A DNA stretch of 40,889 bases from assembly GCA_903858185.1 (NCBI GenBank), contig CAIOHT010000090.1:1-40889 (forward strand). The letters run 5' to 3'. This DNA is from an uncultured Caulobacterales bacterium (lineage in GTDB: Bacteria > Pseudomonadota > Alphaproteobacteria > Caulobacterales > Caulobacteraceae). The translations under genes were made by a program, and so were the position numbers. Each line of letters opens with the position of its first letter. Position 1 is the first letter of the stretch. The notes under the pieces are model-generated. The model did no database searches. It saw only the letters and a program-made list of their open reading frames with translations, and was not told the DNA's origin. Below are positions 2,280-17,130 of this stretch, piece after piece.

Positions 2280-2293
2280 TGACACCGGTTTCC
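2280..2293. promoter_or_regulatory. candidate operator, copy 1 of 5
   Basis: TGACACCGGTTTCC matches the palindrome TGACACCGGTGTCA at 12 of 14 positions, with the left half intact. It lies between the divergent pectate lyase (start 2220) and hydratase-transporter (start 2351) units, so one site could control both. The central CG is typical of LacI-family operators, and a LacI gene lies in the same region (15977-17092). Confidence 0.6.
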
Positions 2294-2350
2294 TCTAGAC
2301 ACAATCGAGAGCCTGAAACTGGGGCCATCGCGTAGGGGAGGACAAGAGGC

Positions 2351-3196
2351 GTGACAGCAGGGGCGAGCGCTTCAATGACTCCCGCGACGACCGGCGCCAC
2401 GCCGGTCGAGATCGCGCGCGCCTTCGTCGCCGCGCGGCTGGCCGCCCGATCGCTGCCGGCTTTCCCCGGCGCCATCCCGGCAAGCCTGGCCGAGGCCTAT
2501 GCCATCCAGGACATCGCTGTCGGCCTCTATCCTGACGATATCGCCGGGTGGAAAGTCGGCCGTGTGCCGCCCGAGCTGCAAGGCCGGCTGGGCGAGGAAC
2601 GGATCGGCGGCCCCAGCTTCCGCAAGGCCTTGCGCCTGCCGCTGCGCGGCGAAACCGTCCGCCTTCCGGTGATTGCCGGGGGCTTTGCGGCGGTCGAGGC
2701 CGAGTTTGTCTATCGCCTCGCATCCGATGCCCCTGTGGGCAAGACCGACTGGTCCGTGGCCGAGGCGCTGGCGATCACCGCCGCCCTGCACATCGGGGTC
2801 GAGTTCGCCGGCAGCCCGCTGAAGACGATCAACGATCTGGGCTCGACGGTCGTCGCCGCTGATTTCGGCAATAACGCAGCGCTGATCGTCGGGCCGGAGA
2901 TTCCCGACTGGCGGGATCGCGCGGACGCATCCCTCCTCTGCGAGACCTTCATCGACGGCGTTTCCGTCGGCGCGGGCGCGGCGGCTTCGGTCCCCGGCGG
3001 ACCGGCCCCGGCGCTGGCCTTCCTGCTCGGACATTGCGCTGCGCGCGGCCTGCCGCTGAAAGCCGGCATGTACGTGACGACCGGCGCGGCGACCGGCATC
3101 CACGAGATCACGGCGGGCCAGACCGCCCGCATCAGTTTTGGTGAGTTCGGCGAGATCCTCTGCACCGCAGAGATCGCGAGACCGAGCCCCCGCTAG
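2351..3196 (+). CDS. 2-keto-4-pentenoate hydratase / FAH-family protein
   Basis: About 281 residues, a usual length for MhpD-type hydratases and decarboxylases of the fumarylacetoacetate hydrolase superfamily. These act on 2-keto acids with a divalent metal. Visible features are a VEAEF segment around residue 118 (the acidic metal-binding motif region), the IND.GS...DFGNNAALIVG block, and a C-terminal GEFGEILC segment. I chose the GTG at 2351 because GGGGAGG lies 9 bases upstream; the in-frame ATG at 2375 has a poorer site. The ExuT-like transporter starts 14 bases after its stop, so the two are probably one operon under the operator at 2280. The substrate is unknown. In this setting it may act on a keto-acid from pectin breakdown rather than on an aromatic meta-cleavage product, but that is inference. 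Confidence 0.75.
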   Translation: MTAGASASMTPATTGATPVEIARAFVAARLAARSLPAFPGAIPASLAEAYAIQDIAVGLYPDDIAGWKVGRVPPELQGRLGEERIGGPSFRKALRLPLRGETVRLPVIAGGFAAVEAEFVYRLASDAPVGKTDWSVAEALAITAALHIGVEFAGSPLKTINDLGSTVVAADFGNNAALIVGPEIPDWRDRADASLLCETFIDGVSVGAGAAASVPGGPAPALAFLLGHCAARGLPLKAGMYVTTGAATGIHEITAGQTARISFGEFGEILCTAEIARPSPR

Positions 3197-3210
3197 GGAG
3201 TCGAAACGTC

Positions 3211-4512
3211 ATGGCGGAAGCCGCTGCTGCATCCGAAGGCCGGATGACTCGCCAACGCTGGGTGATCTGCGCCCTGCTGTTCACCGCCGTGGTGATCAAC
3301 TACGTCGACCGGCAGATGCTGGGGGTGCTCAAGCCCTTCATCTCCGAGGACCTCGGCTGGTCGGAGACCGACTACGCCGACATCGTCTTCTATTTCCAGG
3401 CCGCCTATGCGGTGTCCTACCTGCTGTTCGGCGCCTTCGTGGACCGGGTGGGGGCCAAGATCGGCTATGCCACGGCCTTCATCATCTGGCAGGTCGCGCA
3501 CATCGCCCATGCCGGGGCCAGCAGCCTGGGCCACTTCTTCGCGGTCCGCATCCTGCTCGGCATCGGCGAAGGCGGCAACTTCCCCGCCGGGATCAAGGCG
3601 GTCACCGAGTGGTTCCCCAAGAAGGAACGCGCGCTCGCGACCGGCATCTTCAATGCCGGGGCCAACATCGGGGCGATCATCACGCCGCTGGCGGCGCCGG
3701 CGATCATGCTGCTGTGGGGCTGGCAGGCGGCTTTCGTGATCACCGGTCTGATCGGCCTGCTCTGGCTGGTGGCCTGGTTCGCGCTCTACAACGAGCCGCG
3801 CAAGGCCCGGGGCGTCAACGCGGCAGAGCTGGCGCACATCGAACAGGACCCGGCCGACGACGAGAAGAAGGTCGGCTGGTTCAGCGTGCTGACAAGGCGC
3901 GAAACCTGGGCCTACGCCCTGGGCAAGTTCCTCATCGATCCGGTCTGGTGGATGCTGCTGTTCTGGCTGCCGGACTTCTTCAAGAAGACCTTCGACCTGA
4001 AGCTGTCGATCGGCGGGTTCCACCTGGGCGAGATCGGCACCTACGGCCTTGTGCTGGCGATCGTCTACATCATCTCGGACGTCGGCAGCGTCGGCGGCGG
4101 CTGGCTGTCCTCGCGGTTCATGACCATGGGCTGGAGCATCAACCGGGCGCGCAAGACCACCCTGCTGATCTTCGCCATCGGCGCCCTGCCCTACTTCATG
4201 ATCACCGGCGTCACCAACCTGTGGGTCGCGACCCTGCTGGTCGGCTGGCTGGCTGCGGTGCACCAGGCGTTCTCGGCCAACCTCTACACCCTGCCCAGCG
4301 ACGTCTTCCCGCGGAAGGCCGTGGGCTCTGTCATCGGTATCGGCGGCATGGTCGGCGGCATCGGTGGCATGGTCATGGCCAAGTCGGTCGGCCATGTGCT
4401 CGAGGGTATGGGCGGCTACGGCCCGATCTTCGCGGTCTGCGGCGGGGTCTATCTGCTGGCGATCCTGGTGATCCATCTGCTGACGCCGAAGATGGAGCCG
4501 GTGGCGCTCTAG
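3211..4512 (+). CDS. MFS transporter, anion:cation symporter type, ExuT-like hexuronate importer
   Basis: A 433-residue inner-membrane protein with the twelve hydrophobic segments of the major facilitator superfamily. The first helix ends with NYVDRQMLGVLKP, a signature of the ACS family that includes ExuT and glucarate carriers. The region around residues 111-135 (RILLGIGEGGNFPAG, then EWFPKKER) is also characteristic. A GGGAG site sits 9 bases before the ATG, directly after the hydratase gene. In this region it probably brings galacturonate, glucuronate or small unsaturated uronates into the cytoplasm by proton symport. Substrate assignment rests on family and neighbours. Galactonate or glucarate transport is the main alternative. 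Confidence 0.85.
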   Translation: MAEAAAASEGRMTRQRWVICALLFTAVVINYVDRQMLGVLKPFISEDLGWSETDYADIVFYFQAAYAVSYLLFGAFVDRVGAKIGYATAFIIWQVAHIAHAGASSLGHFFAVRILLGIGEGGNFPAGIKAVTEWFPKKERALATGIFNAGANIGAIITPLAAPAIMLLWGWQAAFVITGLIGLLWLVAWFALYNEPRKARGVNAAELAHIEQDPADDEKKVGWFSVLTRRETWAYALGKFLIDPVWWMLLFWLPDFFKKTFDLKLSIGGFHLGEIGTYGLVLAIVYIISDVGSVGGGWLSSRFMTMGWSINRARKTTLLIFAIGALPYFMITGVTNLWVATLLVGWLAAVHQAFSANLYTLPSDVFPRKAVGSVIGIGGMVGGIGGMVMAKSVGHVLEGMGGYGPIFAVCGGVYLLAILVIHLLTPKMEPVAL

Positions 4513-4583
4513 GCCGCCGCTGTTGTGCGCGACGCCGAAAGGCCTGCTAAAGCTTGTGCCGGTTTGAACCCCGGGAGGCGACC

Positions 4584-4952
4584 ATGGCCGTGACAGGCAT
4601 TGGCGGAATCTTCTTCCGCGCAAAGGATCCCAAGGCGTTGACCGCCTGGTATGCAGACCATCTCGGCGTGGGTTCATCTCCCTACGGCGAATGGCAGACC
4701 CAGGCGGGCCCGAGCGTCTTCTCGCCGTTCAAGGCCGATACCGACTACTTCCCGGCCGATCGCCAATGGATGCTGAACCTGCGCGTCGACGACATCGACG
4801 GCCTCTGCGCCTCGCTGCGGGCGGCCAGCATTGAAGTTATCACCAAACCGGAGTGGGACATGCCGGGCGTGGGCCGCTTTGCGCGGCTGCACGATCCGGA
4901 AGGCAACGCGATCGAACTCTGGCAGCCAGACCAGGCGGCCGGAGACTCCTAG
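4584..4952 (+). CDS. VOC (glyoxalase/bleomycin resistance) superfamily protein
   Basis: A 122-residue single-domain protein. It has the paired beta-alpha-beta-beta-beta pattern of the vicinal oxygen chelate fold: IGGIFFRAKDPKALTAWYADHLG at the start and ARLHDPEGNAIELWQP at the end, where the Glu is the usual metal ligand. GGGAGGCGACC precedes the ATG. It follows the transporter by 71 bases and could be the last gene of that unit. The family covers glyoxalases, dioxygenases and resistance proteins, so the reaction cannot be named. Confidence 0.8.
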   Translation: MAVTGIGGIFFRAKDPKALTAWYADHLGVGSSPYGEWQTQAGPSVFSPFKADTDYFPADRQWMLNLRVDDIDGLCASLRAASIEVITKPEWDMPGVGRFARLHDPEGNAIELWQPDQAAGDS

Positions 4953-4965
4953 GGACCCGTCCTGA

Positions 4966-5016
4966 CCAGCGCGGCTTACGGCCCATCCTCCGACCAGACA
5001 CCCTCAGCCGCGCTGG
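4966..5016. repeat. perfect 11-bp inverted repeat between convergent genes
   Basis: CCAGCGCGGCT at 4966-4976 is the exact reverse complement of AGCCGCGCTGG at 5006-5016, with a 29-base spacer. It sits in the 86-base gap between two genes whose 3' ends face each other (stops at 4952 and 5039). It may protect or end transcripts from both sides. There is no T tract, so a Rho-independent terminator is not shown. Confidence 0.5.
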
Positions 5017-5038
5017 GAACGGGCGGTGGGCTAACCGG

Positions 5039-5827
5039 TCAGGGGCGATCGACCTTGCGCATCCCCTCGCCCGTGACTTCCCACAGCTGGCCCGGATCGG
5101 AAATCATCACGTAGACCGGCTTGCCGATCCAGCGCGACAGCCAGACATGGATCTCCGTTGGCATCGGATCGAGCATATGGCTGACCATCGCGGCGACCGC
5201 GTTCGCTGGCAGCGCCTGGACCATGCAGCTCTTCATGAAGGGGCGTGTCGAGGCGACCTTCCCGTCCGCGCCCACGGTCACCAGGTAGTGCAGGCCGAAC
5301 GGATAGGCCCCGGCCTTGACCTGCGGCGTCAGCAGATAGACCTCGACCGGCGCGGTCTCCGAAGCGGGTGGCACGATGATCGTGTTGAAGGGCTTTTGAA
5401 CACAGGCCGGAGGATTGCTCGCCGCCGCGATCCTGCGGGCGTCGGCCATGCGCCTTTCGACGAGGGTCAGCGTCCGTTCCGGCGCATCCGCCGCGATCAG
5501 GACCGGCTCGACGACCCTGCCGTCGCGGAATCCTGCGCGGAAGACGCCGTAGGGCGCCTCGCCATCGTAGCCGTAATAGAGCACCGACAGACCGCCGCCG
5601 TCGGGCTCGACCAGCCAGCCCTTGATCTCGGCCAGCCGCTTGCGCGGGACGGTCTCGACCATGACATCGGTGGTGTGCCAGGCCGCCTGGTCGTAGTCGT
5701 AGAGCAGCTCGCCCCGCGCAACGATGGCGGCGATACGCGCATTCTCAGTAGGAGCCCTGGCGGCGGCGAAGGAGCCGGCGGCGAGCATCAGGACCAGGGC
5801 CAGAGCGATCCGATGGAAGATGGTCAT
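5039..5827 (-). CDS. hypothetical secreted or periplasmic protein
   Basis: A 262-residue protein I do not recognise. It begins with a clear Sec signal peptide (TIFHRIALALVLMLAAGSFAAARA), preceded by GGGAG. The mature part is mixed alpha/beta with no membrane segment and has two cysteines in the second half (ACVQKP and KSCMVQ), which could form a disulfide. It lies between the transporter unit and kdgK but has no operator of its own in view. Any link to pectin use is unproven. Confidence 0.65.
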   Translation of the reverse strand: MTIFHRIALALVLMLAAGSFAAARAPTENARIAAIVARGELLYDYDQAAWHTTDVMVETVPRKRLAEIKGWLVEPDGGGLSVLYYGYDGEAPYGVFRAGFRDGRVVEPVLIAADAPERTLTLVERRMADARRIAAASNPPACVQKPFNTIIVPPASETAPVEVYLLTPQVKAGAYPFGLHYLVTVGADGKVASTRPFMKSCMVQALPANAVAAMVSHMLDPMPTEIHVWLSRWIGKPVYVMISDPGQLWEVTGEGMRKVDRP

Positions 5828-6058
5828 GGCGAACTCCCTGTCCTCAACCCGAGCCTAGCCGGGGGGATGCGGTCCGGCCAGACTCTCGTCAGGGTCGGAG
5901 CTTGAGGCGCGCTCGTTCCTCCGCCACGCTACGCAGACGGGCGGGACAATCCGGTCCTCTACTGGTTCTTCACCGTCTTGATCGGGCTGATGACCCTTTA
6001 TGGCCTGGGTGAGCTGGCCAAAGGGCTGATTCCGGGATTTGCCCTTCCGCCTCTGCGG

Positions 6059-7165
6059 CTACCGGATAACCCGAGCGCCCTTGCCTTTCATCACAGCCTC
6101 GACCTCGGCGGCGCGGACCATCGAGGTGTCGCCGGGCGTGGTCATGGCAAGAGCGCCGTGGGCGGCGCCGTACTCGACGGCGGCCTGGGGACCCTTGCCC
6201 TCCATGAAGCCGTAGGCGAGGCCCGAGGCGAAGCCGTCGCCGCCACCGACCCGGTCGTAGATCTCCAGGTCGTTGCGTTCCATCGACTGATAGAACTGCC
6301 CGCCGGCGTAAAGGATGGCCGACCAGTCGTTGATGCTGGCGGTCTTCGCATTGCGCAGCGTCGTGGCCGCGACCTTGAAGTTCGGGTACTGCGCGACCGC
6401 CGTCTCGATCATTTTCTTGAAGTTGGTCGGGTCGATCTCGCTGATGTGCTCGTCGAGACCCTCGACCTCGAACCCGAGGCAGGCGGTGAAATCCTCCTCG
6501 TTGCCGATCATCACGTCGACGTATCTGGCGATCTCGCGGTTGATCTTCTGGGCGCCGGGCTTGCCGCCCTGGCTCTTCCACAGCGAGGCGCGGTAGTTGA
6601 GGTCATAGCTGACGATCGTGCCGTACTTGCGGGCTGCCTCGACCGCCTCGATCACCGCCTCGGCGGTGTTGCTGGCCAAAGCCGCGAAGATGCCACCGGT
6701 GTGGAACCAGCGCACGCCCTCCTCACCGAACAGCCTCTCCCAGTTCACCTCGCCGGGGCGGATCTGCGAGGCGGCGCTGTGGCCGCGATCGCTGCAACCG
6801 AGCGCCGGCCGGACGCCAAAGCCCTTCTCGGTGAAGTTCAGGCCGACGCGGGTGTTGCGGCCCAGGCCGTCGAACTCGCGCCAGACCACGTGGCTCATGT
6901 CCACGCCGCCCTGCATGATCAGGTCCTCGACCAGCCAGCCGAGATCGTTGACCGGCAGCGCCGTCACCGCCGTGGCGCGCTTGCCCCAGCATTTGCGCAT
7001 GGCGCGGGCGACGTTGTATTCGCCGCCGCCTTCCCAGACATGGAACTGACGGGCATTGCGCACCCGGCCGAAGCCCGGGTCGAACCGCAGCATCACCTCG
7101 CCAAACGAGGCGCAGTCCCAGCGGGTCTCGCTGGCCGGGCGGATGTTGAGGACGTTTTCGCTCAC
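6059..7165 (-). CDS. kdgK: 2-keto-3-deoxygluconate kinase, PfkB family
   Basis: Phosphorylates 2-keto-3-deoxygluconate (KDG) to KDPG with ATP in the cytoplasm. PfkB features are a GGEYNVA block at 47-53, DLNYR at 188-192, and the nucleotide/catalytic loop DRVGGGDGF at 304-312, where Asp310 should be the base. The usual loop is GAGD; here it is GGGD. At 368 residues it is about 60 longer than the E. coli enzyme. The GTG start overlaps the kdgA stop as GTGA, so translation is probably coupled. KDG is where the KduI/KduD and UxaC/UxuB/UxaA branches in this window meet. Confidence 0.88.
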   Translation of the reverse strand: MSENVLNIRPASETRWDCASFGEVMLRFDPGFGRVRNARQFHVWEGGGEYNVARAMRKCWGKRATAVTALPVNDLGWLVEDLIMQGGVDMSHVVWREFDGLGRNTRVGLNFTEKGFGVRPALGCSDRGHSAASQIRPGEVNWERLFGEEGVRWFHTGGIFAALASNTAEAVIEAVEAARKYGTIVSYDLNYRASLWKSQGGKPGAQKINREIARYVDVMIGNEEDFTACLGFEVEGLDEHISEIDPTNFKKMIETAVAQYPNFKVAATTLRNAKTASINDWSAILYAGGQFYQSMERNDLEIYDRVGGGDGFASGLAYGFMEGKGPQAAVEYGAAHGALAMTTPGDTSMVRAAEVEAVMKGKGARVIR

Positions 7166-7839
7166 GCGAGCTCGCTCCGTATCTTTCGAATGAGATCCAC
7201 GGTCTTGCGCACACGGGCTTCGATGCCCGCCCAGTCGCCTGCCTTCAGCAGGTCATTGGTGATCAGCTTGCTGCCCATGCCGGCGGCGACGATGCCGGCG
7301 CCGAACCATTCCCGCAGGGACGCCTCGTCGGGGTCGACCCCGCCCGTGGGCATGATCTTGGTCCAGGGCATCGGCCCCAGAACGTTCTTCACGAAGGTCG
7401 GCCCGCCGACGCTCTCGCCCGGGAACACTTTGACGATCTCGCTGCCCAGCTCCTGGGCGTAGCTGATCTCGGTCGCGCTGCCACAGCCGGGGCTATAGGG
7501 CACCATGCGCCGGTTGCAGACGCGGGCGACCTCGGCGTTGAGGATCGGCCCGACGACGAATTTGGCGCCGTTGGCGATGAACAGGCCGGCTGTGGGCGCA
7601 TCGACGATGCTGCCGACGCCCATGATCACGCTCGGGTCGGCCTTTGCGAAATGCCGGGTGACATCAAGGAAGGTGTGGGCCGCGAACTCACCGCGATTGG
7701 TGAACTCGATGCAGCGGGCTCCGCCGTTGGCGCAGGCCTGGATGACGTTGACGCAGGTCTCCACGTCCGGGTGATAGAACACGGGGATGACCCCCTGATC
7801 GATCATGGCGGCCAGTACGGCCATGCGGTCCTTGGTCAT
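7162..7839 (-). CDS. kdgA: KDPG aldolase (2-keto-3-deoxy-6-phosphogluconate aldolase)
   Basis: Splits KDPG into pyruvate and glyceraldehyde 3-phosphate, the last step of uronate breakdown. It is a class I aldolase. Lys137 in EIVKVFPGE matches the Schiff-base lysine, and Glu45 and Arg49 in CIEFTNRG match the catalytic pair of the Eda family. The 225-residue length fits a single TIM barrel. It lies upstream of kdgK and overlaps it by four bases. A strong terminator (7890-7924) separates it from the receptor gene upstream, so the pair probably has its own promoter in the ~50 bases before 7839, or depends on read-through. I see no copy of the shared operator there. Confidence 0.9.
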   Translation of the reverse strand: MTKDRMAVLAAMIDQGVIPVFYHPDVETCVNVIQACANGGARCIEFTNRGEFAAHTFLDVTRHFAKADPSVIMGVGSIVDAPTAGLFIANGAKFVVGPILNAEVARVCNRRMVPYSPGCGSATEISYAQELGSEIVKVFPGESVGGPTFVKNVLGPMPWTKIMPTGGVDPDEASLREWFGAGIVAAGMGSKLITNDLLKAGDWAGIEARVRKTVDLIRKIRSELA

Positions 7840-7889
7840 GGGTGTCTCTCACGTCCTCGCGCCTTGTCCAGCCTTACGCCGGATGGTGG

Positions 7890-7924
7890 AAAAAAGAAGG
7901 GCGCCGGGGGTGTGCCCGGCGCCC
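7890..7924 (-). terminator. Rho-independent terminator of the TonB-dependent receptor
   Basis: A perfect 10-bp stem (7899-7908 with 7915-7924) around a 6-base loop, all G and C. In the minus-strand transcript it is followed by CTTCTTTTTT. It begins 21 bases after the receptor stop at 7946 and is the clearest intrinsic terminator in the window. Confidence 0.85.
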
Positions 7925-7945
7925 AGTCTGCGCAAGGAGGTTGAA

Positions 7946-10939
7946 CTAGAAGGTGTACTTGAAGCCGAAGTTAAACTGCCGGCCGGTATGGTGGTAAACC
8001 GACGTGCTCTGGCGGTCGTCGCTGCCGACCCACTGGCGGTTGAAGGTGTCCAGCAGGTTGAGGCCCTCGAACGTCAGGCTGACCTGCGGGCTGACCTTCC
8101 AGCTGGCGGCGGCGTCGACGTTGAAGCTGTCAAGCTTGCCTTCCAGCGCATTGGCGTTCCGGCCCGGGATGTTCTGCAGGTAGCCTTCGCGATAGGCGGC
8201 CGACACCCGGGCGCTCAGACGGTCATCCTCGTAGTAGAGGGTGGCGTTGTAGGCCGTGGGCGAGAGGTTCACGAGATCCTCGGTGATGAACGCGGTGCAA
8301 AGCGCGTTGACCGTGGTGTCGCAGTAGTCGATTTCCGACTTCACCTGGGTGTAGTTGGCCTGGATGCCGAACCGGTCGAACGGCGCGGGCAGGAAGCTGA
8401 ACGGGGCCTGGAAGGCAATCTCGAAGCCGGTCAGCGGGCCGCCATCGGTGTTCACCGCGCTGGTCAACTGGAACACCTGGGTGGGCGTGCAGGCCCCGAT
8501 GCAGAGCGCCGGAGCGAACGCGATCGGATTGATCGCGGTCAGTTCCTGGTACTGCAGGTCCTGGCGGATGATCTGGATGTAGCTGTTGATGTCCTTCTTG
8601 AAGAGCGACACCGAGAACATGGACTCGGGCGCGAAGTACCATTCGAAGCTGAGATCGTAGGTGTTGGCCAGGAAGGGGGCCAGGTCCACGTTGCCGATGC
8701 TGGCCGTGAAGTTCGGGCCGCTCGCCGCCAGGGAGGTCGTCGGCACGAGGTAGTTGGTGCCTGCCAGCGTGTTGCCGATCTGCGGGCGGGCCATGACCTT
8801 CGCGGCGCCGAAGCGGACCATGACGGTGTCCGTCACGTCGAGGGCGAGGTTCAGGGACGGCAGGGTGTTCTCGTAATTGTTGGCGCCGGACACGAGCGTG
8901 CCGCCACCGGTCGAGCTGTAGCCCTCGGCATAGAGTCTGGTTTCAACCTGACGGAAGCCGAAGTTGCCGCGCAGCGGCATGTCGAAGATGTCCGTCCGGA
9001 AGTCGGCCTGCATATAGTAGCCGCGGCTCTCTTCGCTGATGAAGCGGTTGCCGCCGCGGGCGTTGCCGTTGGTGATGCCGGTCAGGGTGAAGTTCCCACC
9101 CGCGACGCCGGTGTCACAGTTGCAGTTGATGTTGAACAGGCTGGTGATCGCATTGAGGTTCGGGACGATCCACTGCGTGGCGTTGCTGCCCGGCATGTCG
9201 AGGTTCCGGCCGAAGCCCGACAGCAACTGCGAGATGTCGGCGATGGTCGTGCCGACCGGCAGGACCGGCACGACCGTTTCGTCGGCGCGACGGTTCTCGA
9301 AGGAGTCGGATTCGAATTTCTTGAAGTTGTAGCCGAACTTGATCGTCAGGAAGTCGGTCGCTTCCCACTGGAAATCGAGCTGCGCGGCGTTGAACGTCGT
9401 CAGTACGCCGTTCGGACGCATCCGGATTTCCGACCGCGGCAGCGCCGCCGTCGCGTTGCCCAGCGACGTGTCGCGCCACGACCAGTTGGCCGGGTTGGCG
9501 ACGTCGAAGCCGTAGTTGATCAGCGGTGTGCTGTTGTTCCCGCCGGTGAAGTCCCAGGAATAGCCCTGGGTGTTCTGGCGATCGAACGTGACCGTCGTCT
9601 GGATCGGGTTCTGGAAGTCGGACTCGGACGTGCCCAGGAAGGCGCGCATGCTCAACCGGTCGCCGAAGTCCTGCTCGAGGGTCAAGGTGTACTGCGTGAA
9701 CTGGGTCTGCAGTTCGTCGTACCGCTGCTCGCTGCGCACATCGACGTTGTTGAACGTGCCGCGCGCCAGCTGGCCCGACGGGTCGATCAAGGCGTCGACC
9801 ACGTGGATCTGCGTCTTGCCGGCGGCCGCCGCGTTCCGGCTGAAGGACAGCGACTCGAGGAAGTTCTCCTGACGGGTCGAGCTCAGGTCGGAATAGAGGA
9901 CGTCGAGGCTGATGGTGGTGGAGTCCGTCGGGCGATACTGGATCGCGCCGGTGAAGCCGGTGCGGTCCTGTTCGTGGACCAGGCGACCGTAGCGAGGCAG
10001 CCGGGGAATGAACACGGTCGCCTGGTTGGCGGTGGTGTAGGCGGTGTTGTTGGCTGCGGTATTGGCCGGGCGTGCGACGCCCGTCGCGCAGTTGGCCGCG
10101 CTGCTGCCGGTCGCCCCGCTGTTGGCCGGGTTCTGCGGCGCGAAGCCGAACGGGCTGCAGAAGCCGCCGTTGTCGGTCGCCCGTTCCCAGCGAACCGAAC
10201 TGAAGCCTTCTTCAAACGAGCTGCGCTGGCTGTACGCCAGGGACGCCAGCACGCCGATTTTCCCGTCGAAGAAGGTGTTGCTGTAGAGCAGCGCCGCGCG
10301 CGGGTCCCACTCTTCCGACAGGTCGTTGTAGCCGTACTGGAGCGAGCCCCCGAGCTTCATCCCCTTGTAGTCGAACGGTCGGCTGGTCCGCAGGTCGACG
10401 GTCGCGCCGAGCGAGCCCTCCTCGACCTCGGCCGAGGCGGTCTTGCGGATCGTCACGCTGTTGAACAGTTCCGATGCGAAGACGTTGAAGTCGAACCCGC
10501 GTCCGCGGTTCGCGCCGCCCGAACTGTCGGTGCCGCCGGTCGTCGCCTGGCCTTCCATGCCGTTGATGCGGGTGCGGGTGAAATCGGGACCAAGGCCGCG
10601 AACGGTGAGCGTGCGGCCCTCGCCCGCGTCGCGGTCGATCGAGACGCCCGGGATTCTCTGGATGGCTTCGACGAGATTGGAGTCGGGGAAGTCAGCGATG
10701 TCTTCCGCCTTGATGGCGTCGACGATTGCCGTTTCCAGCCGCTTGGTCGTCAGGGCGCTTGCGAGACTGCCGCGGAACCCGGTCACCACCAGGGCGTCGA
10801 CCTCGGTGTCCGCTGCGGTCGTGGTTGGCGCGGCATCCTGCGCGTGAACGGCGCCGGCGGTCGCCAGGCTGAAAGCGATTACGGCCATAGAGGCGCCGAG
10901 ACGCAGACCCCCTTGACGCGAACGGTTAGCATTCGACAC
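7946..10939 (-). CDS. TonB-dependent outer-membrane receptor, probable oligogalacturonide importer
   Basis: A 997-residue outer-membrane beta-barrel driven by TonB. In order: a signal peptide (about 1-33, ending AVHA), a TonB box (EVDALVVTG, 46-54), a plug domain with IQRIPGVSIDRD and the VRGLGPDFTRTRINGM block, then a long barrel ending in a terminal Phe (FGFKYTF), the usual outer-membrane insertion signal. GTG 10939 is preferred because GGGGAGGAG ends six bases before it; TTG 10945 abuts that site. Two operator copies lie upstream, shared with the divergent lyase gene. Receptors of this size in Caulobacterales often take up plant oligosaccharides. Oligogalacturonides are inferred here from the neighbours. 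Confidence 0.92.
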   Translation of the reverse strand: MSNANRSRQGGLRLGASMAVIAFSLATAGAVHAQDAAPTTTAADTEVDALVVTGFRGSLASALTTKRLETAIVDAIKAEDIADFPDSNLVEAIQRIPGVSIDRDAGEGRTLTVRGLGPDFTRTRINGMEGQATTGGTDSSGGANRGRGFDFNVFASELFNSVTIRKTASAEVEEGSLGATVDLRTSRPFDYKGMKLGGSLQYGYNDLSEEWDPRAALLYSNTFFDGKIGVLASLAYSQRSSFEEGFSSVRWERATDNGGFCSPFGFAPQNPANSGATGSSAANCATGVARPANTAANNTAYTTANQATVFIPRLPRYGRLVHEQDRTGFTGAIQYRPTDSTTISLDVLYSDLSSTRQENFLESLSFSRNAAAAGKTQIHVVDALIDPSGQLARGTFNNVDVRSEQRYDELQTQFTQYTLTLEQDFGDRLSMRAFLGTSESDFQNPIQTTVTFDRQNTQGYSWDFTGGNNSTPLINYGFDVANPANWSWRDTSLGNATAALPRSEIRMRPNGVLTTFNAAQLDFQWEATDFLTIKFGYNFKKFESDSFENRRADETVVPVLPVGTTIADISQLLSGFGRNLDMPGSNATQWIVPNLNAITSLFNINCNCDTGVAGGNFTLTGITNGNARGGNRFISEESRGYYMQADFRTDIFDMPLRGNFGFRQVETRLYAEGYSSTGGGTLVSGANNYENTLPSLNLALDVTDTVMVRFGAAKVMARPQIGNTLAGTNYLVPTTSLAASGPNFTASIGNVDLAPFLANTYDLSFEWYFAPESMFSVSLFKKDINSYIQIIRQDLQYQELTAINPIAFAPALCIGACTPTQVFQLTSAVNTDGGPLTGFEIAFQAPFSFLPAPFDRFGIQANYTQVKSEIDYCDTTVNALCTAFITEDLVNLSPTAYNATLYYEDDRLSARVSAAYREGYLQNIPGRNANALEGKLDSFNVDAAASWKVSPQVSLTFEGLNLLDTFNRQWVGSDDRQSTSVYHHTGRQFNFGFKYTF

Positions 10940-11042
10940 GTCCAACTCCTCCCCTACGGCGCGTTTGCCCGGCGATCTCCGCCGCCGGTGATTGTCATTA
11001 GCCGCCCTGATCGTCGACCGCGCTCCGCGCCGCCGATCGGGG

Positions 11043-11056
11043 TGACACCGGTGTCA
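11043..11056. promoter_or_regulatory. candidate operator, copy 2 of 5 (perfect palindrome)
   Basis: TGACACCGGTGTCA, a perfect 14-bp palindrome centred on CG. It lies between the divergent receptor (start 10939) and pectate lyase (start 11160) genes. This is the best copy and defines the motif. Confidence 0.75.
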
Positions 11057-11075
11057 TTTCCAGATGCAATCTGTT

Positions 11076-11089
11076 TGACACCGGTATCA
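11076..11089. promoter_or_regulatory. candidate operator, copy 3 of 5
   Basis: TGACACCGGTATCA, 13 of 14 matches to the palindrome. Its centre is 33 bp from copy 2, about three helical turns, so both would lie on nearly the same face of the DNA and could be bound cooperatively. With the T before it, it contains TTGACA (11075-11080), a good -35 hexamer for the rightward lyase gene. A weak -10-like GATACC follows after 17 bases. A repressor here would block that promoter. Confidence 0.7.
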
Positions 11090-11159
11090 TCGATATGGAT
11101 ACCGTAAGACCGATGCCAATGACAAGTCATTCGCGCCACACCATCGTCACTTTCTCGCC

Positions 11160-12548
11160 ATGAGCGAACCAGGCCGCAGAACCGGCCCGCGATATCGGAG
11201 CCCTGCCTTGTTTCTCAAGCCCTTGACTGCTCTGGCCTTCGCGATCGCCTCCGTGGCCAGCGCGTCGGCAACCCCGGCTACGAGGCAACAGGTGGCGTTC
11301 CCGGGAGCGGAAGGCTTTGGGCGCTATGCCCTCGGCGGACGCGGCGGGGCCGTCTTTCACGTCACCACACTCGATGATTCGGGCCCGGGCAGCTTGCGCG
11401 CCTCAGTCGAGGCCAGGGGGCCCCGCACGGTGGTCTTCGACCTGGGCGGCACGATCACATTGCTGAGCCCGCTGAAGATCAGCCGGTCCAACATCACCAT
11501 AGCCGGCCAGACCGCACCGGGCGACGGCATCACCTTGCGCGGCCAGCCGCTGATCATCGCCGCGAACGACGTGATCGTCCGCTACCTGCGCGTCCGGCTC
11601 GGCGACGAATCCGGCGTGCAGGAGGACGCCCTGTCGATCACGCGGGGCCGCCGGATCATCATCGACCACGTCTCGGCCAGCTGGTCGGTCGACGAAACCC
11701 TCTCGGCCGGTAGCCGCTACAGCCCGCCCGAAGAGGGTATTCATGACCTGACGGTCCAGTGGTCGCTGATCGCGGAGTCGCTGAACGCGTCGGTCCATCT
11801 CAAGGGCAGGCACGGCTACGGCAGCCTGATCCGGGGCGGCCATGGCGCGCGCTTTTCCTGGCACCACAATCTGTGGGCCAATCACCAGGCGCGTATGCCC
11901 CGGCCAGGGAACTACAACAGCGCCGCGATCGACCCCGAGGGGCCGCTGTTCGAGTTCCGCAACAACGTCTTCTACAACTGGGGCGGCGGTCGGGCGGGCT
12001 ACAATGCCGACACGGATTCCCGGGCCGGCTACGACTTCATCGCCAACTGGTACCAGCCTGGACCGGACAGCGAGGGCGCCCTCGCCTTCTGCGAAGAAAA
12101 CCCGGTGGCCCGCGCCTTTTTCGCCGGCAACGCCATGAACGGGATCGAGCCGGCTGACCCCTGGAGCCTGGTGGGCTGCACGCCGGGCCCAGACTATCGC
12201 GCGCCTGCACCGCTGGCCGATTCCGGTCTGGCCACCGACACGGCTGCCCGCGCCTTCGAACGCGTGTTGGCGGGCGCAGGGGCCTCGAAGGCCCGCGATG
12301 CGGTGGACCAGCGGATCGTCGCCGGCGTCCGAAACCGGACAGGCGGGCTGATCAACAGCCAGACCGAGGTCGGCGGCTGGCCCGTGCTGAAGAGCGGCCC
12401 GGCCTGGATCGACTGTGACGGCGACGGCATGCCCGACGACTGGGAACGGTCGCATGGGTTCGATCCGACCAACGCTTCCGATGGCGCCCAGGACCGCAAT
12501 GGCGACGGCTGGACCAATCTCGAGGATTGGCTGAATTCGCTGGTCTAG
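11160..12548 (+). CDS. secreted pectate lyase, polysaccharide lyase family 1-like, with C-terminal Ca-binding-like motif
   Basis: A second extracytoplasmic pectate lyase (462 residues from ATG 11160). The N-terminus is Arg-rich, then a hydrophobic signal segment (FLKPLTALAFAIASVASASA). The in-frame TTG at 11208 has a better GGAG site and begins right at that segment, so it may be the true start. The mature part has AFPGAEGFG...GGRGG, beta-helix strands (TIAGQTAPGDGI, VIVRYLRVRLGDE, IIIDHVSASWSVDE) and WHHNLWANHQARMPR. The C-terminus ends with two acidic loops, DGDGMPDDW and DRNGDGWTNLEDW, which resemble dockerin or thrombospondin type 3 calcium sites. It diverges from the receptor gene behind two operators. 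Confidence 0.87.
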   Translation: MSEPGRRTGPRYRSPALFLKPLTALAFAIASVASASATPATRQQVAFPGAEGFGRYALGGRGGAVFHVTTLDDSGPGSLRASVEARGPRTVVFDLGGTITLLSPLKISRSNITIAGQTAPGDGITLRGQPLIIAANDVIVRYLRVRLGDESGVQEDALSITRGRRIIIDHVSASWSVDETLSAGSRYSPPEEGIHDLTVQWSLIAESLNASVHLKGRHGYGSLIRGGHGARFSWHHNLWANHQARMPRPGNYNSAAIDPEGPLFEFRNNVFYNWGGGRAGYNADTDSRAGYDFIANWYQPGPDSEGALAFCEENPVARAFFAGNAMNGIEPADPWSLVGCTPGPDYRAPAPLADSGLATDTAARAFERVLAGAGASKARDAVDQRIVAGVRNRTGGLINSQTEVGGWPVLKSGPAWIDCDGDGMPDDWERSHGFDPTNASDGAQDRNGDGWTNLEDWLNSLV

Positions 12549-12566
12549 GGGACATGTCCCCGCAGA

Positions 12567-13322
12567 TTAACGCGCCAGCCAGCCGCCATCCACCGGCAGC
12601 GTCACGCCGTGGACATAGTCGCTCGCCGACGACGCCAGGAACACCGCCGCCCCGCCAATATCGCCGGGCTGGCCCCAGCGGCCGGCCGGGATCCGTTCGA
12701 GGATCGACCTGTTGCGCGCCTCGTCGGCCCGCAGGGCCTCGGTGTTGTTGGTGTCGAAATAGCCGGGCGCGATGGCGTTGACGTTGATCCCCTTCGCCGC
12801 CCACTCGTTGGCGAGGATCTTGGTCAGTCCGGCCAGGCCGCTCTTGGAGGCGGTGTAGCTCGGCACCCGGATGCCGCCCTGGAAGCTCAGCAGGCTGGCG
12901 ATGTTGATCACCTTGCCGCCGCCGCTCGCCAGCATGACCTTCGCCACGGCCTGGGTCAGGAAGAACACCGTCTTGAGGTTGGTGTTCATCACCGCGTCCC
13001 AGTCGTCCTCTGAAAAGTCGATCGAGTCCGCCCGCCGGATGATGCCGGCATTGTTGACCAGGATGTCGATCCCGCCGAGCGCTGCCAGGGTCTCCTCGAC
13101 CACCCGCACCACGGGCTCCGTCGAGCCGAAGTCCGCCTGGATCGAGACGAACTTTCGGCCCAGCGCTTCGACAGCAGCCTGCGTCTCCGTCGGCGCGGAC
13201 CGGCCGGCAGCGGCGATGTCAGCCCCCGCTGCGGCGAGCGCCACGGCGATCCCCTGGCCGATGCCGGTATTGGCGCCGGTAACCAGGGCCACCTTGCCGC
13301 TGAGATCAAAGGGACTGCGCAT
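12567..13322 (-). CDS. kduD: 2-dehydro-3-deoxy-D-gluconate 5-dehydrogenase (SDR)
   Basis: Reduces 2,5-diketo-3-deoxygluconate to KDG with NAD(P)H, the second step after pectate lyase products are opened. It is a classical 251-residue short-chain dehydrogenase: TGANTGIG cofactor loop (15-22), NNAG (90-93), and YTASK with catalytic Tyr156 and Lys160. The N-terminus (FDLSGKVALVTGANTGIG) and the LPVDGGWLAR end are KduD-like. ATG 13322 is used; an in-frame TTG 12 bases upstream lies closer to a GGAGGGG site. It follows kduI after about 124 bases that contain a large hairpin. Its stop is 18 bases from the stop of the convergent lyase gene. Confidence 0.87.
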   Translation of the reverse strand: MRSPFDLSGKVALVTGANTGIGQGIAVALAAAGADIAAAGRSAPTETQAAVEALGRKFVSIQADFGSTEPVVRVVEETLAALGGIDILVNNAGIIRRADSIDFSEDDWDAVMNTNLKTVFFLTQAVAKVMLASGGGKVINIASLLSFQGGIRVPSYTASKSGLAGLTKILANEWAAKGINVNAIAPGYFDTNNTEALRADEARNRSILERIPAGRWGQPGDIGGAAVFLASSASDYVHGVTLPVDGGWLAR

Positions 13323-13353
13323 TGGGATATCCAAGGCTTGAAACGCCCCTCCT

Positions 13354-13440
13354 CCGTCTCCCCGGCGCAGGCCGGGGCCCAGATTCAGTCTGAGCGTTCA
13401 GTGAGTTTCATCTGGATCCCGGCCTGCGCCGGGAAGACGG
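13354..13440. repeat. REP-like inverted repeat between kduI and kduD
   Basis: Two 30-base arms, 13354-13383 and 13411-13440, match as inverted repeats at 27 of 30 positions, separated by 27 bases. The core is CCCGGCGCAGGCCGGG. It lies inside what otherwise looks like a uxaC-kduI-kduD operon. The form resembles the dispersed palindromic intergenic repeats of many high-GC alphaproteobacteria. In RNA it would form a very strong hairpin that could slow transcription into kduD or protect the 3' end of the upstream message. Confidence 0.8.
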
Positions 13441-13446
13441 GGGAAG

Positions 13447-14295
13447 TTATTTCAGCTGGCAGATGTCGAGGACGTTCATGTCGGTGTAGTCGAGGTTCTC
13501 GCCGCCCATGGCCCAGATGAAGGCGTAGTTGGCGGTGCCCGAGCCCATGTGGATCGACCACGGCGGGCTGATCACGGCTTCCTCGTTGGCGACCACGATG
13601 TGGCGCGCCGCATCGGGCTCACCCATGAAGTGGAACACCCGCTCATCGGGCTTGAGGCCGAAGTAGAAATAGATCTCCGACCGCCGGTCATGCAGGTGCG
13701 GCGGCATGGTGTTCCACACGCTGCCGGTCTTCAGGATCGTCAGGCCCAGCAGGAGCTGCGCCGACTGGCAGACGCCCGGAATGACGTACTGGTAGATGGT
13801 CCGTTCGTTCGACGTTTCCAGCGAACCGCGCTCGAGCGGCGTAGCGTCGGCGATGGAGATCTTCTGCACCTTGTAGGCCGCATGGGCCGGCGTCGAGGCG
13901 AGATAGTAGCGGGCAGGATTGGCTGGATCGACACTCTCGAACACGACCGACCTGGCGCCCATCGGCACATAAAGGCCGTCCTTGGGGCCGATATCGTAAG
14001 CGACTCCGTCGACCGTCACCCTGCCTGCGCCGTCAGCCACATTGATCAGGCCGAGCTCGCGGCGCTCCAGGAACGGATGGCCGGCGGCCGAGGCCGGCTC
14101 GGTCTGGTCGGGCAGGCTGACGGGCGCATCGATCGGGGCCGCCCCGCCGATGACGAACCGCTCGTTGTGCGAATAGTTGAGCATCACCTCGCCGGGCACG
14201 AACAGGTCGGTGACCAGATAGCGGTCGCGGAGCTGGTCGTTGTCCACCAGCTCCATCATGTCGGGATGGGTGGCGTGATAGGTCTTGTTGAACAT
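13447..14295 (-). CDS. kduI: 5-keto-4-deoxyuronate isomerase
   Basis: Isomerises 5-keto-4-deoxyuronate to 2,5-diketo-3-deoxygluconate in the cytoplasm. The 282-residue length is typical. The cupin metal ligands are visible as His200, His202 and Glu207 in [10 protein letters not shown], and His249 in PPWSIHMG, matching the His-His-Glu-His set of the E. coli enzyme. The gene begins 18 bases after the uxaC stop, so the two are probably cotranscribed. Confidence 0.93.
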
Positions 14296-14313
14296 GTCGG
14301 AGCTCCGGGTCGG

Positions 14314-15726
14314 TCAGAGTTTGTAGGCCCGTTTGGGCAGGGTGTAGGCAAGGTCGACAGCGACGTCCCGGGCCTCGTCGAGATCCAGGCGATGCTCGGT
14401 CACCAGGCGGGCGAGGAAGGAACAGTCCACCCGCCGGGCCACGTCGTGCCGCGCCGGGATCGACAGGAAAGCACGGGTGTCATCGTTGAAACCGACGGTG
14501 TTGTAGAAGCCGGCGGTTTCGGTGGTCTGTTCGCGGAACCGGCGCATGCCCTCGGGGCTGTCGTGGAACCACCAGGCCGGACCCAGCTTCAGGCAGGGAT
14601 AGTGGCCGGCCAGCGGGGCGAGCTCGCGGCTGTAGGCGGTCTCATCCAGCGTAAACACGATCACCGACAGGCTCCGATCGTTGCCGAAGGCGTCGAGCAG
14701 CGGCTTGAGCGCGCGGACGTAGTCTGTCTGTGTCGGGATATCGGCGCCCTTGTCCCGGCCGTAACCCTCAAACAGCATCCGGTTGTGGTTGCGGAAGCTG
14801 CCGGGGTGGATCTGCATCACCAGCCCGTCGTCGAGGCTCATGCGGGCCATCTCGGTCAGCATCTGGGCGCGGAACAGCTCGGCCTCGGCCGGTGAAACGG
14901 GCCCGGCGATGATCCGGCTGAACAGCGCCTCGGCGTCGGCCTGCGGCAGATCGGCGGTCGCCGCCGTCGGATGGCCATGATCGGTCGAGGTTGCGCCCAG
15001 CGCCGCAAAGGCTGCCCGGCGGATGCGGTGCGCCTCGAGATACCCCTGCCAACTGTGGACGTCCTGCCCGGTCAGGCGGGCGAAGGCCTCCAGCGCGGGG
15101 CGGAACTGCTCATGCTCGGCGTCGATCACCGGGTCGGGCCGATAGGCGGTGACCACCCTGCCCGGCCAGCCGCTGTCGCGGATCGCGCGATGATGGACCA
15201 GGTCTTCCTGAGGTCCCTCGGTCGTGGCCAGCAGTTCGATATTGAAGCGCTCGAACAGCGCCCGGGGCCGGAAGGCGTCGGTTCCCAGAGCCGCGCCGAT
15301 CGCGTCGAAATGGGCGTCGGCAGTCCCGGCGCTGAGGCGCTGGGTGAAGTTGAACACCTCGGCGAACACGTGATCCAGCCACATCGCCGACGGCGTGCCG
15401 CGGAACAGATGCTGGTTCGCCGCGAACAGCCGCCAAGCCTCGCGCGGATCCATATCCGAAGGCCGCCCGTGGGCCGGAATGCCCAGCAACTCCAGCGAGA
15501 CACCCTGGCTGTAGAGCATGCGGTAGAGGTAGTGATCGGGCTGCAGCAACAGCTCGGCGGCATTGCCGAACGGGTCGTTGGTCGCGAACCACTCCGGGTC
15601 CGTATGCCCGTGCGGACTCAGGATCGGCAGCCCCTTCACCTCCGCGTACAGCTCACGCGCCACTCCCCGCGCCGCCGGCTCGGCGGGAAACAGGCGGTCC
15701 TCGTGGAGGTGAAGCGGGGTGGACAT
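14314..15726 (-). CDS. uxaC: uronate isomerase
   Basis: Interconverts galacturonate and tagaturonate, or glucuronate and fructuronate. At 470 residues it has the usual UxaC length. The metal-binding SPHGHTD motif is at 37-43 (His39 and His41). Other family blocks are RFNIELLATTEGP, the VMQIHPGSFRNHN segment and the GFNDDTRAF segment. The N-terminus (LHEDRLFPAEP) fits the family, so the ATG at 15726 is probably right even though I see no good ribosome binding site. A partial operator lies only 8 bases upstream. It is first of the uxaC-kduI-kduD set. Confidence 0.94.
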   Translation of the reverse strand: MSTPLHLHEDRLFPAEPAARGVARELYAEVKGLPILSPHGHTDPEWFATNDPFGNAAELLLQPDHYLYRMLYSQGVSLELLGIPAHGRPSDMDPREAWRLFAANQHLFRGTPSAMWLDHVFAEVFNFTQRLSAGTADAHFDAIGAALGTDAFRPRALFERFNIELLATTEGPQEDLVHHRAIRDSGWPGRVVTAYRPDPVIDAEHEQFRPALEAFARLTGQDVHSWQGYLEAHRIRRAAFAALGATSTDHGHPTAATADLPQADAEALFSRIIAGPVSPAEAELFRAQMLTEMARMSLDDGLVMQIHPGSFRNHNRMLFEGYGRDKGADIPTQTDYVRALKPLLDAFGNDRSLSVIVFTLDETAYSRELAPLAGHYPCLKLGPAWWFHDSPEGMRRFREQTTETAGFYNTVGFNDDTRAFLSIPARHDVARRVDCSFLARLVTEHRLDLDEARDVAVDLAYTLPKRAYKL

Positions 15727-15734
15727 GCACGCTA

Positions 15735-15748
15735 GGTAACCGGTGTCA
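15735..15748. promoter_or_regulatory. candidate operator, copy 4 of 5 (half-conserved)
   Basis: GGTAACCGGTGTCA keeps the right half of the palindrome and 11 of 14 positions overall. It is 8 bases from the uxaC start codon, so a bound repressor would cover the start region. Being half-degenerate, it is the weakest of the five sites. Confidence 0.45.
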
Positions 15749-15949
15749 TATCACGGAGCAAGGTCCGACACTCTCCAGCGCGTCATCATCTGGCGCCGAA
15801 GTACTGCTTCATTCGATCAAGGACTTCCGACGTCGGGGTCGCGCCGGGGCGCGCCCAGACAAACCTTCGCCCACGCCGCCGATGCCTCTGTCGCGATCTG
15901 AAGCGAGCGCCTGGCGCTTTGCACCTCGATGGAACGCCCGTTCAGTATG

Positions 15950-15973
15950 AGGATTGAACGCGCGATCAATCCT
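15950..15973 (-). terminator. possible terminator hairpin after the LacI-family gene
   Basis: A perfect 8-bp inverted repeat, AGGATTGA (15950-15957) and TCAATCCT (15966-15973), with an 8-base loop. It starts three bases after the regulator's stop codon. There is no T tract, so termination is only suggested. The remaining ~200 bases up to the uxaC operator show no gene I can support. Confidence 0.4.
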
Positions 15974-15976
15974 GTT

Positions 15977-17092
15977 CTACCCCCTCGGCCCGCTCGTCGA
16001 CTCCCGCACCACCAGCGACGGCAACCGGTCCGCCGGGTCGCGCTTGTCGTCACCGGCCTGGCCGATGAGCTTTTCGGAGGCCAGCCGGCCGATCTCGCGG
16101 GTCGGCGAGCGCACGGTGGTCAGCGGGGGCCAGACGCGCGAGGCAATCTGGAAGTCGTCGAAGCCCACGACAGACAAGTCCTCCGGAACCGACAGTCCGG
16201 CCCGCCGGGCGGCGTGCAGCGCGCCGGCGGCCATCTCGTCGTTGCCGGCGAAGATCGCCGTCGGGCCGTTCGGCAGGGCCAACAGTTTCGCCGCGCCCTC
16301 CAGCCCGGACTCGAACGTATAGGCGCCCTCGGCGACGTGCTCGGCCGCCAGGGTCAGACCGTGCTCGGACAGCCCTTCCTCGAAGCCTCCTCGCCGCTCG
16401 TGCGACGAGCGGAAGGTCAGCGGACCGGAAATGAACCCGACCCGCCTGTGACCCAGCTCCGCCAGATGGCGCCCGGCGAGCAGGCCGCCGTGCCGGTCCT
16501 GGGTGACGATCGAATGGGAGGCCTCGTCGACGGCCACCGAGGCGACGCGCACATACTCGCAACCGATCTCACGCAGCATCGCCGCCACGCCCTCGTCTTC
16601 CGATACCGACGGAGTCAGGACCACGCCGAACAGCTTCTGTCGCTCGATAAAGGCGCGGATGTCGGGCACCAGGGTGGTGCTGCCGCGGTCGCAGGGGTGG
16701 ACCACCAGCTCGAAGCCGGACCCGCGCATGCCGTCCAGCAGGCCCAGCTGCATGTTCACGACATACTGCGGGTTGGGGTTGTCGTAGATCAGCCCGATCA
16801 GGAACGACCGCCGGAAGGCCAGGCCGCGCGCCTGCGGGTCGGGCGCATAGCCGTACTTCGCGATGACAGCCTCGATCTTCTCCCGCGTTTCCGGGCGCAG
16901 CGACGGCGAGCGGTTGATGACCCGCGAGACGGTCTTCTTCGAGACCCCCGCGATCCGGGCGATGTCGTTGATCGTGGCCCTGCGCCGGCCGCCTTCGAGG
17001 GCGGCATCATCGGCGGGCTTCGGCGTCCTGGGACTCAAGCGGAGACTCCGGCAAGGCTGTCTGACCTGTGATAGCCCGCCCGCGTGTGACAT
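15977..17092 (-). CDS. LacI-family transcriptional regulator of the pectin/uronate genes
   Basis: A 371-residue DNA-binding repressor with an N-terminal helix-turn-helix (TINDIARIAGVSKKTVSRVIN, about 40-60), a hinge helix with the Leu that contacts the central CG of LacI operators (ARGLA, Leu91), and a periplasmic-binding-protein-like sensor domain (GLIYDNPNPQYV, HLAELGHRRVGFISGP, FAGNDEMAAGAL, VVGFDDFQIA). ATG 17092 is used. TTG 17038 has a better GGAG site and would remove 18 residues. A longer GTG form from 17122 would read through the operator and is unlikely. The gene is divergent from uxaA, with one operator copy between them, so it probably controls itself too. The inducer is unknown; KDG or a uronate intermediate is the likely type. 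Confidence 0.88.
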   Translation of the reverse strand: MSHAGGLSQVRQPCRSLRLSPRTPKPADDAALEGGRRRATINDIARIAGVSKKTVSRVINRSPSLRPETREKIEAVIAKYGYAPDPQARGLAFRRSFLIGLIYDNPNPQYVVNMQLGLLDGMRGSGFELVVHPCDRGSTTLVPDIRAFIERQKLFGVVLTPSVSEDEGVAAMLREIGCEYVRVASVAVDEASHSIVTQDRHGGLLAGRHLAELGHRRVGFISGPLTFRSSHERRGGFEEGLSEHGLTLAAEHVAEGAYTFESGLEGAAKLLALPNGPTAIFAGNDEMAAGALHAARRAGLSVPEDLSVVGFDDFQIASRVWPPLTTVRSPTREIGRLASEKLIGQAGDDKRDPADRLPSLVVRESTSGPRG

Positions 17093-17116
17093 GCCAGCGG
17101 GCTGCCCAGGTTCGAT

Positions 17117-17130
17117 TGACACCGGTGTCG
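17117..17130. promoter_or_regulatory. candidate operator, copy 5 of 5
   Basis: TGACACCGGTGTCG, 13 of 14 matches. It lies between the divergent regulator (start 17092) and uxaA (start 17151). With the preceding T it contains TTGACA, as copy 3 does. It is 20 bases from the uxaA ATG, so a repressor here could block both transcripts. Confidence 0.65.

Follow-up and report, generated by a model that had tools for sequence, protein, structure and literature searches.

The stretch analysed here, referred to as the window, comprises the 40,889 nucleotides of contig CAIOHT010000090.1 from an uncultured Caulobacterales bacterium whose genome (G000) belongs to the genus Caulobacter. It carries genes for pectin breakdown and uronate catabolism, a gene for a LacI-family regulator and five copies of a 14-bp palindrome. 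We conclude that these copies are very probably operators of this regulator, predicted to be a pectin/uronate repressor that also sets ppc and pdhA, two genes of central metabolism on other contigs. The genes and predicted operators are as follows.

847–2220, minus strand: PelZ-like pectate lyase (NF041900, E 2.4e-117, under the curated cut-off).
2280–2293, plus strand: predicted operator TGACACCGGTTTCC between the pelZ-like gene (minus) and hydratase-exuT (plus); 12/14 matches.
2351–3196, plus strand: hydratase-like gene of the FAA hydrolase superfamily (weak NCBIfam matches; the G003 orthologue matches PF01557).
3211–4512, plus strand: major facilitator superfamily transporter of the hexuronate/galactonate type, ExuT-like (TIGR00893, E 1e-69, under cut-off; PF07690).
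6059–7165, minus strand: sugar-acid kinase, probable KdgK (PF00294; 2-keto-3-deoxygluconate (KDG) kinase families under cut-off).
7162–7839, minus strand: eda, 2-keto-3-deoxy-6-phosphogluconate/2-keto-4-hydroxyglutarate (KDPG/KHG) aldolase (NF005499, over cut-off).
7946–10945, minus strand: TonB-dependent receptor (TBDR; TIGR01782, over cut-off; PF00593, PF07715).
11043–11056, no strand assigned: predicted operator, exact palindrome, between TBDR-eda-kdgK (minus) and the second pectate lyase (plus); 14/14 matches.
11076–11089, no strand assigned: second predicted operator TGACACCGGTATCA, 33 bp from that at 11043; 13/14 matches.
11160–12548, plus strand: second pectate-lyase-like gene (NF041900, E 1.8e-51, under cut-off).
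12567–13334, minus strand: kduD (TIGR01832, over cut-off).
13447–14295, minus strand: kduI (PF04962).
14314–15726, minus strand: uxaC (PF02614).
15735–15748, minus strand: predicted operator TGACACCGGTTACC oriented towards uxaC, whose ATG follows after 8 bases; 11/14 matches.
15977–17092, minus strand: LacI-family regulator, proposed binder (PF00356, PF13377).
17117–17130, plus strand: predicted operator TGACACCGGTGTCG between lacI (minus, 24 bases to ATG) and uxaA (plus, 20 bases to ATG); 13/14 matches.
17151–18638, plus strand: uxaA, altronate dehydratase (PF20629, PF04295, PF08666).
18635–20047, plus strand: uronate reductase of the uxaB/uxuB type (PF01232, PF08125; fructuronate reductase family under cut-off).

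The motif was scored against the 14-mer consensus TGACACCGGTGTCA, with TGACACCGGT as its half-site. An earlier note on this DNA had reported the five sites with these same positions and match counts, and all were reproduced; each has the central ACCGGT, giving an even palindrome with a central CG. Seven window positions match TGACACCGGTGTCA with at most three mismatches, compared to a mean of 1.85 and a maximum of 5 in 100 dinucleotide-preserving shuffles. The same note held that no other ACCGGT in the window has matching flanks, which is incorrect: position 6691, inside kdgK, has the ACCGGT core and 11/14 matches, and position 9103, inside the TBDR gene, matches 12/14 with the core GCCGGT. 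Because these two score as well as the sites at 15735 and 2280, respectively, mismatch counts separate poorly and were dropped as a classifier. Instead, an intact half-site on either strand sets the five promoter sites apart from both. The five sites are real and far beyond chance expectation.

The genome scan that the note had proposed was carried out with the pattern TGACACCGGTNNC, and its result supports the regulon. Ten distinct places were found in the 3.49-Mb genome (12 matches counted by strand, since two places are full palindromes) where 1.9–3.2 were expected, and the five sites within 2280–17130 compare to an expectation of 0.008–0.014. Expectations cover both strands and were derived from Markov models of order 1–3 trained on 203,699 bases of the genome itself; they were preferred to a reversed-pattern control (157 vs 61), which was not used as a statistic since the reversed word has different dinucleotides. 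The exact palindrome occurs twice (0.010–0.017 expected), and forms with one mismatch to it occur four times (0.45–0.70 expected). Eight of the ten places lie at pectin/uronate genes, ppc or pdhA. Besides the five window sites, the places are:

C132:35730: the 14-mer also seen at 2280, 10 bases upstream of the start called for a pectin-acetylesterase-like gene.
C38:57309: predicted operator 40 bases before the phosphoenolpyruvate (PEP) carboxylase gene ppc (NF000584, over cut-off).
C94:86705: predicted operator, exact palindrome, beginning at base 45 of the pdhA coding sequence (TIGR03182, over cut-off).
C8:85712: match inside a patatin-like gene.
C12:105953: match inside a gene without a Pfam match.

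The scan adds the C132 gene, whose best NCBIfam match is pectin acetylesterase PaeX (E 4.7e-94, 315 bits, under the cut-off of 550), as a further pectin-type target. As copies also stand before this gene and ppc and inside pdhA, the regulon is not just local, and the compact local regulon of the earlier note does not hold. The C8 and C12 places are probably chance matches, since two or three are expected genome-wide, and were set aside. A further sequence, TGACACAGGTGTCA at C26:47684 (L099:5185-5198), lies close to where a DUF2807 gene starts; it matches 13/14 but lacks the central CG and was likewise set aside as probable chance.

The protein encoded at 15977–17092 has both LacI-family domains (PF00356, 61.6 bits, cut-off 27; PF13377, 138.1 bits, cut-off 26.5), and a profile search found no other PF00356 protein in the genome, which is rated 100% complete; the same search recovers LacI proteins in 9/14 control genomes, including C. 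vibrioides. In its recognition helix the two residues that set specificity are KK in 80/80 orthologous loci (67 by pattern, 13 read individually), and lacI shares the site at 17117 with uxaA. Together with the conservation of sites beside the gene, these observations strongly support, at the level of sequence, the earlier suggestion that this protein is the likely binder. An orthologue (at least 70% identity) is present in 23/25 genomes of the genus and was not found in G011 and G014. Six of the 25 have a single LacI gene (G000, G014, G015, G019, G021 and G022). In five of these the single LacI is the orthologue (73–100% identity), and each contains TGACANCGNTGTCA exactly twice; the word is absent from G014, whose only LacI is just 39% identical to that of the window. 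The 19 genomes with more LacI genes contain it 3–11 times each.

The half-site was then sought within 400 bp upstream of each gene in 80 Caulobacterales loci with LacI orthologues. It precedes uxaC in 52/52 loci, uxaA in 49/50, the hydratase-like gene in 21/22, the TBDR gene in 25/25, the second pectate lyase in 14/14 and pelZ in 5/5; at these six anchors, 300 permuted 10-mers averaged 0.00–0.07 loci, with a largest count of 9. It is rarer before eda (23/37), kduI (9/53), kduD (8/76) and uxaB (2/39), and was found before neither kdgK (0/52) nor exuT (0/8), both of which follow other genes in the window. We know of no pectin step for a hydratase-like enzyme of this kind; given its conserved operator, the gene is predicted to be a candidate for an enzyme of uronate catabolism. 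The window copy has no Pfam match at 1e-3, and its weak matches are to 2-keto-4-pentenoate hydratases.

The distance between neighbouring operators is 33 or 34 bp in 30/80 loci and 44, 80 or 100 bp in others, while pairs at 56 and 89–91 bp are the divergent hydratase/uxaC sites. For LacI-family sites in general, spacing peaks at 32 bp, which has been read as cooperative binding (PMC4052901), and the two operators 33 bp apart at the TBDR/lyase promoter would be bound in this manner. At uxaC the operator is TGACACCGGTTACC, directed at the gene, in 52/52 loci; TTG[CA] stands 13 bases before it in 45/46 distinct upstream sequences (14 bases in the other), and TACC occupies operator positions 11–14 in 46/46. 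This spacing corresponds to −35 and −10 elements with 17 bp between them, suggesting that the asymmetric half may also serve as the −10 region. The operator would thus occupy the space between the conserved TTGCA element and TACC, and bound protein would block RNA polymerase. The geometry at uxaA is looser, with TTG[CA] at −12 in 16/46 and at −11 in 3/46, and TACC in 26/46. The 8 bases between operator and ATG of uxaC in the window compare to a median of 56 in relatives, and the window leader seems shortened.

The two targets outside pectin metabolism were followed across the genus. In 16/21 ppc loci, ppc comes after kduI-kduD in the same orientation, and that stretch has no half-site. In G000, G019 and G021, three genomes of the clade of the window, ppc lies outside the pectin cluster, and a predicted operator stands about 40 bases before it, reading AGACACCGGTGTCA in two of them and TGACACCGGTGTCG in one. 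The pdhA site is present with at most two mismatches in 24/25 genomes of the genus, in frame at about codons 15–20, in a variable N-terminal stretch of the coding sequence; it is missing in G014. Ten copies are exact; another four have GGAAACCGGTGTCA, which is the hydratase-type operator reversed. The exact site is also present in C. ginsengisoli, C. segnis FS and an uncultured Caulobacter, three of 23 readable pdhA loci from other LacI-bearing genomes. In G014 the site is missing and no orthologue was found; we do not claim a joint loss, as a single-gene pdhA tree leaves the fork open and nests Phenylobacterium there.

One alternative is that the pdhA site is no operator, and that selection for the peptide DTGV has left the palindrome as a by-product. 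The site is indeed in frame and encodes DTGV, ETGV or ATGV in 23/24 genomes, but the codons look more constrained than the residues. Conserved residues are always encoded alike, by ACC in 23/23, GGT in 23/23 and GTC in 24/24 cases. Yet only 131/1032 Gly codons of pdhA are GGT, and among its 38 Gly columns, 10 of which are invariant, the site column is the only one with GGT throughout. The codon after GTC starts with A in 24/24 while encoding N, S, K or T, and that before GAC ends in T in 11/16 compared to 439/7581 in the rest of pdhA. Invariant codons beside varying residues suggest that the constraint is on the DNA, as for an intragenic operator maintained in 24/25 genomes. Moreover, the G022 site (L142) is TGACAACGTTGTCA, which differs by two symmetric changes and is still a perfect palindrome while the peptide turns from DTGV to DNVV, and exact sites are expected by chance only 0.010–0.017 times per genome. 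We therefore regard a by-product of peptide selection as improbable. As a separate observation on G022, its pdhA site is of the AACGTT type, yet its single LacI is 92% identical to that of the window and its lacI locus (L171) has ACCGGT sites.

A slightly less improbable alternative, though still one we doubt, is that the pdhA site, and perhaps that of ppc, belongs to GluR, a LacI-family regulator of Caulobacter placed after zwf-pgl-edd-glk with a predicted central-metabolism regulon (PMC4052901), and is a relic without a reader in the genome of the window. The palindrome at the 5' end of zwf is CATGACAACGTTGTCATA in 6/6 regions with a LacI gene after zwf-pgl-edd-glk; the GluR operator TGACAACGTTGTCA differs from the window motif only at ±2, and the G022 pdhA site is exactly this word. 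However, 23/24 pdhA sites have the ACCGGT centre, GluR-carrying genomes included, and single-LacI genomes with the window orthologue keep the site (exact in G000, G015, G019 and G021). No TGACAACGTTGTCA was found anywhere in the G000 assembly, in which a contig ends inside zwf. The pdhA site thus fits the window LacI, as judged from these sequences, better than GluR. Elsewhere the zwf site reads TGACAGCGTTGTCA in G009 (L260:3059) and CGACACCGCTGTCA in G021 (L261:3968), a possible rewiring to another LacI. Least probable of all is that the palindrome belongs to a transcription factor outside the LacI family, the adjoining LacI gene being incidental: binding by LacI is a prediction, and uronate regulators of other families exist elsewhere, such as the GntR-family UxuR (PMC5507952), but an even palindrome with a central CG is a LacI-family hallmark (PMC4052901) and lacI and uxaA have a common site. 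Furthermore, operator position 2 correlates with residues AA-55, AA-15 and AA-5 in this family (Camas et al., PMC2978694), and the two proteins GluR and window LacI, whose operators differ at this position, have K or I at AA-15 and N or H at AA-5 but do not differ at AA-55 (numbering by alignment here).

Several observations weigh against the assignment of all these sites to the pectin LacI. The conservation counts come from related sequences that share ancestry and are not independent, and the half-site is found upstream of lacI itself in only 53/79 loci. Two of the ten genome places, C8 and C12, sit inside unrelated genes. In G009 and G012, ppc neither follows kduD nor is preceded by a site. 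In 20 of the 23 readable loci outside the genus set, namely those from Phenylobacterium, Brevundimonas, Maricaulis, Hyphomonadaceae and unassigned genomes, no pdhA site was seen, and G011, a 93%-complete assembly in which no LacI orthologue was found, keeps the site with two mismatches. Finally, among 20 stretches with further half-sites examined in G003, G005, G007 and G009, some half-sites precede typA (two), an S41 peptidase and a biotin carboxylase, in addition to those that precede or abut three hydratase orthologues, four TBDRs, a pectic acid lyase and a GH3 enzyme. In larger genomes the motif reaches more genes, not all of them pectin-related, and other LacI proteins may read some of these sites.

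Two further features were noted in these relatives. Asymmetric operators, TGACACCGGTTACC and TGACACCGGTTTCC, stand 116–119 bp upstream of typA/bipA at L277:3133-3146 (G003) and L287:2859-2872 (G007). In addition, L274:2933-5998 encodes a large secreted-looking protein with a Laminin_G_3 domain, and L283 and L290 encode look-alike N-termini; in three Caulobacter genomes, 26–39 bp separate these Laminin_G-type genes from an asymmetric operator upstream, the domain having been tested in one and the other two being look-alikes.

Under the assignment we favour, the pectin LacI would repress pectin uptake, the pectate lyases and the enzymes leading from uronate to pyruvate until a sugar acid of the pathway releases it. 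The effector is perhaps KDG, the meeting point of the lyase and isomerase branches, or else galacturonate; both are guesses. Control by the same protein would extend to PEP carboxylase and pyruvate dehydrogenase, both of which act at the pyruvate/PEP node supplied by pectin; the operator inside pdhA would serve either as a roadblock or as a partner in looping. We consider it somewhat probable that the pectin LacI throttles pdhA and ppc directly, such that the arrival of uronate opens the sugar pathway together with the pyruvate node, and that the base at ±2, C in operators of the pectin regulator and A in those of GluR, separates the two paralogues.

Compared to known systems, the window LacI resembles GluR in its family, its near-identical palindrome (TGACA-N-CG-N-TGTCA) and its central-metabolism targets (PMC4052901). 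It differs in that all five window operators have ACCGGT in place of AACGTT and are not TGACAACGTTGTCA, in its position between uxaC and uxaA in a genome where no other PF00356 protein was found, and in being only about 40% identical to GluR, whose targets are zwf-pgl-edd-glk, pykA, ppdK and sucABCD (PMC4052901). Six groups of LacI-family uronate regulators, named ExuR, KdgR, UxaR and UxuR, likewise control glucuronate/galacturonate catabolism (PMC4052901, Table 1); the passages concerned name groups from Bacteroides and do not mention ppc or pdhA. Intragenic operators are known in lacZ for LacI and in purB for PurR and make up <1% of LacI-family sites (PMC4052901). The pdhA site is similar in lying inside a coding sequence, but differs in that its gene is an unlinked one of central metabolism, in that it starts at base 45 and in being kept across the genus. 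In the open-licence literature searched, the 14-mer TGACACCGGTGTCA was not found, the listed titles of papers containing shorter or sister words of the motif concern other subjects and, judged by titles, no paper reported that a LacI protein controls ppc or pdhA in Caulobacter. As LacI regulons go, the pectin/uronate core is ordinary and may already be in RegPrecise; the extension to ppc and pdhA is the surprising part.

Sugar-specific repressors are mostly local. The single-LacI genome offers a clean case: its operators have one candidate binder, and two of these sites are at the pyruvate/PEP node; ppc, which is inside the cluster in most relatives, bears its own operator where it is located elsewhere. 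If this assignment is true, one switch would tie polysaccharide uptake to central flux. GluR and the window LacI lend themselves, as a pair, to tests of how a single base pair keeps paralogous regulators apart.

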